A DNA stretch of 38,166 nt from an uncultured Clostridia bacterium (lineage in GTDB: Bacteria > Bacillota > Clostridia > Christensenellales > Borkfalkiaceae): contig CANQTD010000019.1 in assembly GCA_947626685.1 (NCBI GenBank), positions 1-38,166 on the forward strand. The letters run 5' to 3'. The notes under the pieces were generated by a model. It saw nothing but the letters and a program-made list of their open reading frames with translations. It made no database searches and was not told where the DNA came from. Of this stretch, positions 11 through 31,092 are shown one piece after another; the stretch's first letter is position 1, and each line of letters starts with the position of its first letter. Position numbers and translations under genes: made by a program.

Positions 11-62
11 ACACCCCTTCCGTCACCTTCGGTGACACCCACCCCTCGAGGGGTGGGCAAGG
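11..62 (+). repeat. 52-bp palindromic intergenic repeat, copy 1
   Basis: This 52-bp unit holds two adjacent hairpins. One is built on CCGTCACCTTCGGTGAC and the other on CCCACCCCTCGAGGGGTGGG. An exact copy in inverted orientation lies at 29883-29934. The hairpin-plus-C-rich-palindrome layout resembles the REP-like intergenic repeats common in gut Clostridia. No coding capacity is apparent. Confidence 0.85.
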
Positions 63-29589: not shown

Positions 29590-29637
29590 CTCTACCTCCG
29601 AGACGCGTATCTGAAAAATGGACAAGCGGAGACAGAG
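29590..29637 (-). promoter_or_regulatory. Stem sequestering the mgtE ribosome binding site
   Basis: CTCTGTCTCC (29628-29637 on the minus strand) is complementary over ten bases, two of them central G-U pairs, to GGAGGTAGAG (29590-29599), which includes the mgtE ribosome binding site. The loop is 28 nt. An upstream GCGGGG inside the leader ORF (29662-29667) could pair with CTCCGC (29626-29631) and compete. Regulatory role inferred. Confidence 0.55.
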
Positions 29638-29646
29638 CTGCGGAAA

Positions 29647-29715
29647 CTAAGCGGGAACATGCCCCGCAAAAGCGCGCAGCCTGCATGGATCTTCGCCACT
29701 ACTTCGTCCTTTCAC
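29647..29715 (-). CDS. Leader ORF (22 codons) upstream of mgtE
   Basis: A GTG start at 29713-29715 is preceded by a perfect AGGAGG at 7-nt spacing, and the frame runs 22 codons to TAG at 29647-29649. The peptide contains SGEDPCRLRAF and ends GHVPA. Its stop is 60 bp from the mgtE start and nine bases from the anti-ribosome-binding-site strand. An acidic-proline Glu-Asp-Pro run at codons 8-10 is the kind of sequence that destabilises ribosomes. It is likely a regulatory leader peptide, not a protein with its own function. An overlapping ATG frame of seven codons starts too close to the AGGAGG and is rejected. Confidence 0.7.
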   Translation of the reverse strand: MKGRSSGEDPCRLRAFAGHVPA

Positions 29716-29746
29716 GGGTCATCCTCCTTTTTTTGAGTTCCCTATC

Positions 29747-29775
29747 AGTGTATTCCCTTTTGCAAAAAAAGTCAA
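29747..29775 (-). promoter_or_regulatory. Promoter of mgtE
   Basis: On the minus strand TTGACT (29770-29775) and TACACT (29747-29752) are 17 bp apart, giving a leader of about 155 nt before mgtE that contains the leader ORF. I find no M-box riboswitch landmarks in it. Confidence 0.75.
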
Positions 29776-29817: not shown

Positions 29818-29880
29818 TCGCCTCGGTATGAGGGGACGGGGGCCTTCACCCCTTCGGGGGAAAGCCGAGAGTTTTGATAC
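29818..29880. repeat. Degenerate palindromic repeat unit
   Basis: TATGAGGGGACGGGGGCC followed by CTTCACCCCTTCGGGGGAAAGC resembles the hairpin halves of the other intergenic repeats. It lies between the mgtE promoter and the 52-bp repeat. No gene is visible. Confidence 0.5.
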
Positions 29881-29882
29881 GT

Positions 29883-29934
29883 CCTTGCCCACCCCTCGAG
29901 GGGTGGGTGTCACCGAAGGTGACGGAAGGGGTGT
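29883..29934 (-). repeat. 52-bp palindromic intergenic repeat, copy 2
   Basis: This is an exact inverted copy of positions 11-62, two adjacent hairpins. Identity over all 52 bp across nearly 30 kb suggests recent spread or gene conversion. Confidence 0.9.
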
Positions 29935-29948
29935 TGCGTAATCAGAAT

Positions 29949-30075
29949 GACACCCCCTCCGTCTCGCTTACGCTCGACAGCTCCCCCTCAAGGGGGCGCC
30001 GAGATCTTACCTTCCGCATCTCGCCCCACCCCCGTATCCCCCTCCCACGGAGGGGGCATTTCAGAAGGAGTGAGT
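29949..30075. repeat. Further palindromic repeat units downstream of ribU
   Basis: ACACCCCCTCCGTCTCGC, a GCTTACGCTCGACAGC hairpin and CCCCCTCAAGGGGG repeat the same layout with a different sequence. A second half-unit, CCCCCTCCCACGGAGGGGG, follows near 30050. The right end AGTGAGTGAATCTT matches the inverse of AAGATTCACTCA near 2045. Together with the preceding units this fills the stretch of about 300 bp between the mgtE promoter and the end of ribU; I see no gene in it. Confidence 0.7.
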
Positions 30076-30080
30076 GAATC

Positions 30081-30833
30081 TTACCAAACGAAGTAATTGA
30101 GCAGGGCGAACAGGACGAGGAGGAGCACGGCCACCGCGAACACGATGAAAAGGGCGAGGTCGCGTCCCGCCGCCGCGCGTTCCTTCCCCTCCTTCGGCGC
30201 GAGCTTGCGGCTCATGCGTTCGATCGCGCGGGAGATGTACTTATAGATAAAGATGCTCACGAGGCTCGCCACGAGACAGCGCAAAAGATTGAATGGCAGC
30301 ACGGAGACCAGCAGGTAGTAGAGGAAAAACGTATCGCGGGTGATGCCGGGGAAGAGCGGCGTCATCATGCCGAGGAGGGGTTCCCAGCTTCCGTGGAACA
30401 TGACTTGCACATAGAACGGGATGAGAATGAGCCAATTCGTGAAGATCGCGACGGTGATGGAGCTGAGGGAGCCTACCGTGAGGGCCAGCGCCGCTCCCTT
30501 GCGCGTCCGCATCTTCTTATAGATGAGCCCCGCGGGAATGACGAAGGCGATCCCCACGAAGAGATTCGCGAGATCCCCCACAAACATGCTCCCCGTCCCC
30601 GCGAAGGCGAGCTTGATGAGCAGCTTCACGACGACGATGATACACCCCGAGAGCGGCCCGAGCGCGAACGTGCCGATGAAGAGCGGGATATCCGAAAAAT
30701 CAAATTCGAGAAACTCCGGAAACGCAAACGGGAGCCGGAATTTCGCATACGCGTGCAAGATCCCCGCAAGCGCGGAAAAGACCGCGATCATGGCGATGCG
30801 CGTAGAGTTGAAGTATCTGCCCTGAGATGTCAT
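30081..30833 (-). CDS. ribU: ECF transporter substrate-binding subunit, riboflavin type (RibU-like)
   Basis: The 250-residue membrane protein has the RibU/ECF S-component layout of about six hydrophobic segments. It starts with IAMIAVFSALAGILHAYAKFRLPF, the helix-1 region used to bind the shared T component, followed by DFSDIPLFIGTFALGPLSGCIIVVVK. It should take up riboflavin with a common EcfA/A'/T module encoded elsewhere. The start ATG 30831-30833 follows GGAGG; the longer frame runs through the terminator. An FMN riboswitch just upstream supports the riboflavin assignment. Confidence 0.92.
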   Translation of the reverse strand: MTSQGRYFNSTRIAMIAVFSALAGILHAYAKFRLPFAFPEFLEFDFSDIPLFIGTFALGPLSGCIIVVVKLLIKLAFAGTGSMFVGDLANLFVGIAFVIPAGLIYKKMRTRKGAALALTVGSLSSITVAIFTNWLILIPFYVQVMFHGSWEPLLGMMTPLFPGITRDTFFLYYLLVSVLPFNLLRCLVASLVSIFIYKYISRAIERMSRKLAPKEGKERAAAGRDLALFIVFAVAVLLLVLFALLNYFVW

Positions 30834-30880: not shown

Positions 30881-30896
30881 TGCCAAAGCATGTCTC

Positions 30897-31003
30897 TTTT
30901 CTCATCCGGACTATACCGTCGGTACGGGAATTGCACCCGTTCGGGCCGAAAGGCTTCGCAGACTATACTGCCGGTGGAGAATTTCACTCCGCCCCAAAGA
31001 TCA
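30897..31003 (-). promoter_or_regulatory. FMN riboswitch (RFN element)
   Basis: On the minus strand the aptamer landmarks appear in order: TTTGGGGCGGAGTGAAATTC, CCACCGGCAGTATAGTC, a variable arm with GCCTTTCGGCCC, GGGTGCAATTCCCGTACC, and GACGGTATAGTCCGGATGAG. It should reduce ribU expression when FMN is plentiful, through the terminator that follows. Confidence 0.95.
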
Positions 31004-31092
31004 AGTTGTATGCAAAGGTTGCCTTATTCGATAGGGATTATTCGATAAGGATTAGCTTTGCTGGGGAGTTGTATCCCCCTTTCCTCCTTCTT

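Follow-up and report, generated by a model that had tools for sequence, protein, structure and literature searches.

Ribosome-based control of Mg2+ uptake through leader ORFs is already known from enterobacteria. In Salmonella, the 8-codon ORF mgtQ lies between mgtC and mgtB, and mutations described in PMC8092293 support a leader in which 3:4 pairing hides the mgtB ribosome site, 2:3 pairing frees it and 1:2 pairing favours 3:4. In that source, a ribosome on strand 1, or one slowed early by Asp2/Glu5, favours 2:3 and raises translation of the transporter, and changing the mgtQ start codon to a stop codon cut mgtB translation. For the leader ORFs mgtL and corL of E. coli and Salmonella, PMC11552253, which cites Gall 2016 and Chadani 2017, links poor translation at acidic and proline codons in low Mg2+ with high expression.

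We analysed a 38,166-nt stretch of DNA (here called the window), contig CANQTD010000019.1 of assembly GCA_947626685.1, from an uncultured Clostridia bacterium of the Borkfalkiaceae, in which the leader of the Mg2+ transporter gene mgtE lies on the minus strand. This leader and that of mgtQ share a strong ribosome site and a short ORF, and the logic of 1:2 plus 3:4 against 2:3 is predicted for the window; the Asp2 of MgtQ also matches types B, D and E of the Clostridia upstream ORFs (uORFs) presented below. Unlike the leader in the window, mgtQ controls mgtB, sits inside an operon and belongs to enterobacteria, while the window peptide has Lys2 and its acidic residues at codons 8-9. Strand 2 falls largely within the uORF in the Clostridia, where the typed uORFs are mostly longer than mgtQ. 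By analogy, the type of leader found in the window (type A) may work like mgtQ, yet because of Lys2 and the acidic residues further in we did not file it as a member. Salmonella had already been invoked in an earlier note on this DNA, which took the mgtA leader ORF as a precedent for translation-based Mg2+ sensing; the analogy with enterobacterial Mg2+ leader ORFs holds, but the closest worked-out precedent is mgtQ, not mgtL. The mgtL and corL ORFs (PMC11552253) likewise lie 5' of a Mg2+ transporter gene, but their output is Rho-dependent transcription termination, whereas here it is the predicted access to the mgtE ribosome site.

Two riboswitch systems also invite comparison. The M-box (RF00380), which precedes mgtE in sister genera, binds Mg2+ directly, in contrast to the uORF of the window. 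The M. tuberculosis pe20 M-box with uORFs (PMC12810186) similarly alternates SD, anti-SD and anti-anti-SD pairings that overlap a uORF in a Mg2+-related leader; it is riboswitch-driven and mycobacterial, and the likeness is one of description, not of sequence. Among the matches listed by our literature search, which included few subscription papers or preprints, we found no description of an ORF in the mgtE leader of any Clostridia or of the wider uORF family.

The mgtE leader of the window

The earlier note had placed a short GTG ORF with an AGGAGG ribosome site between a promoter and mgtE, and both ORF and site are present (table 1). Here, a short ORF with a strong ribosome site lies directly 5' of a Mg2+ transporter gene, as in mgtQ-type attenuators. 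It lacks an acidic residue at codon 2, which is Lys; its acids are Glu8 and Asp9, part of a Glu-Asp-Pro run at codons 8-10. The anti-site that the note had seen nine bases past the uORF stop was also borne out, with ten-base complementarity to the mgtE ribosome site made of 8 Watson-Crick and 2 G-U pairs (CUCUGUCUCC:GGAGGUAGAG). The predicted layout has four strands, in which 1:2 joins the start of the uORF to its end, 2:3 joins the uORF body to the anti-site and 3:4 joins the anti-site to the mgtE site. A GCGGGG within the uORF had been proposed as the competitor for the anti-site. As the main competitor it did not survive: GCGGGG finds its partner mostly at the start of the uORF itself (CCCGUGAAAG:CUUUUGCGGG, 1:2) or in P3, and it is GCAGGCUGCG that competes.

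Table 1. Positions of leader features and of mgtE in the window.
Feature	Position	Strand	Basis or remark
mgtE, Mg2+ transporter, 557 aa	27913..29586 (ATG 29586)	-	Pfam MgtE_N, CBS, MgtE
Strand 4, GGAGGUAGAG, ribosome binding site of mgtE	29590..29599	-	partner of the anti-site
Strand 3, CGCAGCUCUGUCUCC, includes anti-site CUCUGUCUCC (29637-29628)	29628..29642	-	partner 29675-29684 or 29590-29599
uORF, 22 codons, VKGRSSGEDPCRLRAFAGHVPA; GTG 29715-29713, TAG stop 29649-29647	29647..29715	-	translation; start regex in relatives
P3 hairpin GCGGG-CCCGC, just 5' of the uORF stop	29651..29667	-	folds; P3 and P1 counted in the alignment
Strand 2 distal, CUUUUGCGGG, close to the end of the uORF	29663..29672	-	pairing statistics, alignment
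Strand 2 proximal, GCAGGCUGCG, anti-site competitor	29675..29684	-	folds, including with a ribosome modelled at codon 4
Most conserved uORF stretch GGACGAAGUAG, codons 3-6	29699..29709	-	36-leader alignment
Strand 1, CCCGUGAAAG, around the start of the uORF	29709..29718	-	pairs with 29663-29672; both-side changes at alignment columns 12:76
uORF ribosome binding site AGGAGG	29723..29728	-	7 nt before GTG; similar sites in relatives
Predicted promoter TTGACT-17-TACACT	29747..29775	-	pattern match; chance-level alone

Folded without a ribosome, the window leader formed 1:2 and 3:4; when a ribosome was modelled at codon 4 it formed 2:3, although in the latter fold another hairpin still takes part of the mgtE site. 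With the ribosome represented as an unpaired footprint, access to the mgtE site was 0.12 without a ribosome, 0.55-0.57 with one at codons 1-6 and 0.05 with one in mid-uORF; a late ribosome gave 37% and one at the stop 50%. Compared with shuffled sequences, 1:2 was significant (p 0.005), while 2:3 (p 0.25) and 3:4 (p 0.11) were not; the hairpin that reaches from codon 6 of the uORF to the anti-site was marginal (z -2.2, p 0.0495). The whole leader was no more stable than its shuffles (z -0.25), and a leader-wide stable fold was discarded as evidence on that value. By itself, the window sequence is hardly above chance; it is the comparison with relatives that lifts the leader above it.

At gathering thresholds, the sole Rfam match in the window was an FMN riboswitch elsewhere; no M-box (RF00380) was found in the leader, in agreement with the earlier note. 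Below threshold, the leader gave one match only, on the opposite strand (15.7 of 55 bits, E 4.3), and the Mg_sensor / mgtA leader model was unmatched at the gathering threshold in the window and, in the leader, at E values of up to 5.

The genome of the window has a single mgtE match at E <= 0.001. The encoded protein has a seemingly duplicated N-terminal domain: Pfam finds MgtE_N twice, and residues 12-104 align to the same segment of relatives as the residues from ~104 on. As for the promoter, which the note had called good, the pattern in the window is at chance level when taken alone (1 found versus 1.0 expected), but 34 of the 48 type A leaders, that of the window among them, have TTGACN-15..19-TANNNT 5' of the uORF. 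The pattern is missing just 5' of the uORF in the other 14 (L017-L023, L030, L034, L041, L044, L054, L057 and L063), which may have their promoter elsewhere. Further upstream, the FMN riboswitch (30890-31005, minus strand, 99.9 bits) lies immediately 5' of a gene for an ECF transporter substrate-binding component (30081-30833), presumably of a riboflavin transporter; an FMN riboswitch also occurs 5' of mgtE on L002 and L025. At ~29840-30070 the window has a GC-rich intergenic stretch with units like CCACCCCT..AGGGGTGGG and GACGGAAGGGGTGT. Similar sequence is found in L018 and L023, likewise 5' of mgtE, and the stretch may be an interspersed repeat; no internal repeat was found inside it.

Type A leaders in close relatives

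The earlier note had asked for the leaders of relatives to be aligned. We took the best 80 of 124 related loci which, with the window, make 81 leaders. The regex for the uORF start matches 55 of the 81, window included, with peptides that begin KGRS or near it (KVRS in L014, EGPS in L055, DDRS in L059 and L060). Among the remaining 26, 13 have a uORF of the wider family and 13 have none that we could see. The type A peptide starts VKGRSS or MKGRSS, continues with a variable body and often ends FAA..SA.

The Glu-Asp-Pro run had been put forward as the sensing element. It is present at codons 8-10 in the window and in 0 of the 47 other non-redundant type A members, and the nearest relative, L002, whose MgtE is 90% identical, has Gly-Asp-Pro. 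As a conserved sensor it was therefore rejected, occurring in 1 of 48 type A leaders. Of the features that an intrinsic ribosome destabilisation peptide would show near its N-terminus, an acidic residue at codons 6-11 is found in 37 of the 47 others, and DP, EP, PD or PE at codons 6-12 in 7; type A has Lys2 (or Glu2), and 10 of the 48 have no D/E at codons 6-11.

Across an alignment of 36 leaders, 82.9% of the cells of P1 and P3 can pair, versus 25-53% in slid controls, and both sides have changed in 24 cells, versus 8.1 in shuffles (0/500). In relatives, the uORF start pairs with the uORF end as GCCGUGAAA:UUUGCGGC, the basal pair of which varies between G-C (25), A-U (4), C-G (2) and G-U (2), with 3 misses. 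Base-pairing thus accounts for much of the FAA/FAV peptide ending. Taken jointly, 1:2 and 3:4 are paired in 76.6% of cells versus 49-58% in slid controls; column shuffles come close at 74.5%, none of 500 reaching 76.6%, and further pair types were not unusual (31 versus 29.4 in shuffles, 148/500). The duplex between anti-site and mgtE site is stronger with its own partner than with a swapped one in 42 of 53 leaders (p 1.4e-4, uncorrected for relatedness); L059 and L060 were excluded from this test and from the leader folds. Both shuffle and swap tests ignore kinship among leaders. Alignment A1 misplaces the P1 partner in the window row, and just 53.7% of its cells pair in the outer helix of the anti-site.

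RNAalifold returned only 9 pairs on the 36-row alignment, and model R1 thus contains, besides P1, no more than a 2-pair helix. R1 was dropped for detecting distant types: across 391 class genomes its strong matches stayed within the window's own genus (4 genomes), and 8 weak matches in class genomes had no mgtE at their loci.

Relative to the earlier note, the outcome of the comparison is partly supportive overall. Sequence comparison favours the conserved uORF, the anti-site, a competing pairing between uORF and anti-site, and selection on the peptide; conservation of the Glu-Asp-Pro codons was not found.

A wider family of uORFs ahead of mgtE

With a cut-off of E <= 1e-40, 260 of the 391 class genomes and 92 of the 121 family genomes have an mgtE match. 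We assembled leaders from the 80 close loci, from a class draw (29 new loci and 80 hand-picked among the matches listed, chosen roughly by score with second copies and others skipped) and from a family draw (25 new and 20 more). Leaders were placed by tblastn, with mgtE starts assigned by script and some of them possibly wrong. This gave 230 leaders with a length of 150 bases or more, of which 207 were left after filtering by similarity, or 208 with the window.

By fixed criteria (14-60 codons, good ribosome site), 132 of the 207 leaders contain a uORF, versus 24.4 in dinucleotide shuffles. Residue 2 of these uORFs is Asp in 57 cases versus 0.3 expected, 5 of the 57 being internal in-frame starts within type A uORFs, and Lys in 52 versus 2.4. 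Inspecting the peptides, we set five types by eye and found a typed uORF in 123 of the 208 non-redundant Clostridia mgtE leaders: type A (VKGRSS, 48 leaders including the window), type B (MDAG.S..GR, 44), type C (MSDYHPSVDPLS, 8), type D (MDSGPLP/VDPVPLP, 16) and type E (MDAHPGRS, 7). Four typed members are doubtful (L064, L165, L181 and L207); all were kept in the typing, pairing and hairpin-stability counts, L165 was left out of the modelled-access counts and L064 out of the codon counts. There are also untyped look-alikes (L069 METAGRSS; L193 MDSGPVP; L185, L188 and L201 APGRS), so that the count of 123 may err in either direction. In 69 of the 208 leaders we saw no typed uORF and no M-box. 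Most typed uORFs have 20-40 codons, and lengths and C-termini differ widely among types. Type D peptides (MDSGPLP, VDPVPLP) resemble MgtL.

Asp2 occurs in 67 of the 74 typed non-A uORFs, largely by construction of the types; it is encoded by GAC in 40 and GAT in 27, and the codons of Ala3 and Gly4 vary freely at the third base. The codon patterns point to selection on the uORF peptide. AGT makes up 56/101 of the Ser codons at uORF codons 2-14 in type A, 66/89 in type B and 34/62 in types C-E, versus 0/56, 8/67 and 3/37 later in the uORF and 0/26 in the window mgtE. For Arg, the share of CGA is 59/90, 40/53 and 10/20 at codons 2-14 and 1/14, 3/49 and 2/53 later. This early preference for CGA and AGT is perhaps explained in part by pairing with the anti-site.

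Searching the 391 whole genomes with the type B and type D uORF patterns matched 11 and 14 genomes, versus 0 for control patterns, and all 25 places lie just upstream of mgtE (11 by tblastn on loci, G019 on one stretch, 13 by position). Since the patterns were derived from mgtE leaders, the informative part is that there were no matches elsewhere.

Pairing was then compared with shuffles in the 123 typed leaders. At p<=0.05, 1:2 is significant in 94, 2:3 in 48 and 3:4 in 34, with ~6 expected for each. By type (A/B/C/D/E, 48/44/8/16/7 leaders), the counts are 37/35/6/9/7 for 1:2, 23/16/3/5/1 for 2:3 and 16/4/2/7/5 for 3:4, so that 1:2 is supported in all five types and 3:4 hardly in type B. The RNA that begins at codon 6 and ends 20 bases short of mgtE is stabler than shuffles (p<=0.05) in 42 of 48 type A leaders, with a mean z of -3.4, and in 31/43, 6/8, 7/16 and 4/7 leaders of types B-E. 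We modelled mgtE-site access in 119 leaders, omitting 4 of the 123 whose uORF reaches the mgtE site. The effect of the ribosome on mean access is small in type A (none 0.32, codon 1 0.39, codon 4 0.32, mid 0.27), and in type B codon 4 equals no ribosome (0.29 versus 0.29). It is clearer in type D (none 0.37, codon 1 0.54, codon 4 0.56, mid 0.34) and type E (none 0.13, codon 1 0.29, codon 4 0.21, mid 0.13). Access is higher with the ribosome at codon 4 than in mid-uORF in 83 of 119 leaders (p 2e-5) and higher than without a ribosome in 68 of 119; shuffles gave 33-53%.

Three other Borkfalkiaceae genera have an M-box 5' of an mgtE gene (L097, L143, L231, L232, L235-L240, L242 and L245). The MgtE proteins concerned are only 52-62% identical to that of the window, of which they may or may not be orthologues. 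Scanning 100 loci in five sets of 20 with cmscan gave an M-box in 18, 2, 0, 0 and 1, 21 in total; beyond these loci M-box status comes from a text pattern, which missed 3 of the 21 confirmed cases. No M-box was found by cmscan in 40 scanned leaders of types A, B, C and E. Both an M-box and a type D uORF are present in L203, L210, L220, L221 and L222, where stacked control of mgtE by a riboswitch and a PLP-type uORF is possible. L218, outside the typed set, has an M-box and an MDSSPLP uORF. At the level of sequence, the comparison argues for a conserved uORF, for two uORF patterns confined to mgtE, for statistically supported pairings and for an M-box where the uORF would be in sister genera.

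Proposed mechanism and alternatives

We propose that the leader is probably a translational attenuator of mgtE, switched on by early loss of the ribosome from the uORF. In the OFF state, 1:2 and 3:4 would form and mask the mgtE ribosome site; in the ON state, 2:3 would leave it freer. A ribosome that pauses or drops off in the first uORF codons would keep strand 1 open and leave strand 2 undisturbed, allowing 2:3 to form and mgtE to be made. Full translation of the uORF, or a uORF without a ribosome, would lead to 3:4 and the OFF state. Removing the uORF start codon would be expected to bring expression down, not up, because strand 1 would then pair with strand 2. The signal would be low Mg2+, by analogy with the poor elongation through acidic and proline leader peptides in enterobacteria. 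We infer the switching itself, early ribosome loss as its trigger and Mg2+ as its signal; the last is likely, because the product of the gene transports Mg2+ and sister genera have an M-box 5' of mgtE. The earlier note had also proposed that early ribosome loss exposes mgtE and full translation masks it. That idea fits the four-strand folds, but its strands and its Glu-Asp-Pro sensor were wrong. Our confidence in the attenuator goes no further than probable, given the weakness of 3:4 in type B and, in types A and B, a modelled access that is about the same with a ribosome at codon 4 as without one.

The same attenuator could respond to general translation capacity or to the supply of aminoacyl-tRNA (CGA Arg, AGU Ser), and not directly to Mg2+. 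The enrichment of CGA and AGT at uORF codons 2-14, and not later, is what such a signal would have in its favour. These codons occur singly, however, without runs, and several type B leaders have their AGU/GAAG stretches within the predicted 2:3 stem, which would explain the codon choice. Given also that the gene is a Mg2+ transporter with an M-box ahead of mgtE in sister genera, we consider another signal unlikely. If Mg2+ is the signal, it might bind the RNA directly, in an undescribed structure to which the uORF contributes only strand 2 and in which translation is incidental. The long hairpins of the 48 type A leaders (mean z -3.4) would suit this, as would the start:end pairing, the best supported feature of all. 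It is nevertheless distinctly unlikely, since Asp2 is retained despite a varying third base, the third bases of residues 3-4 are free, and the uORFs have a good ribosome site and an open frame. No aptamer-like core shared across types was seen either, and no Rfam family was found in the window leader or in 40 further uORF leaders, tRNA and FMN matches lying elsewhere on the loci.

That N-terminal residues of the uORF are conserved at the amino-acid level would also be expected of a small regulatory protein with its target in MgtE or elsewhere. The distal part of type A uORFs, however, tracks pairing with the start (GCC..GGC, ACC..GGU, CCC..GGG), and uORF lengths and C-termini are highly variable between types, which leaves a protein function most improbable. 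An ordinary upstream ORF with chance complementarity would account for most pairings in the window alone, which are not significant, but not for the comparative results on uORF conservation, pattern specificity and pairing, and we regard it as very unlikely.

Beyond the attenuator itself, we tentatively suggest that Clostridia mgtE might be ruled by a large undescribed family of leader ORFs in which the ribosome serves as the Mg2+ sensor, interchangeable with an M-box and sometimes with one stacked ahead, and convergent with mgtQ in Asp2 and the four strands. If true, early abortion of leader-peptide synthesis would be a widespread Mg2+ sensor in Firmicutes, at another transporter than in enterobacteria. 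Within one family, the uORF may then swap or combine with a riboswitch ahead of mgtE, and the many natural variants would serve for testing which feature of a nascent peptide makes its translation Mg2+-dependent.
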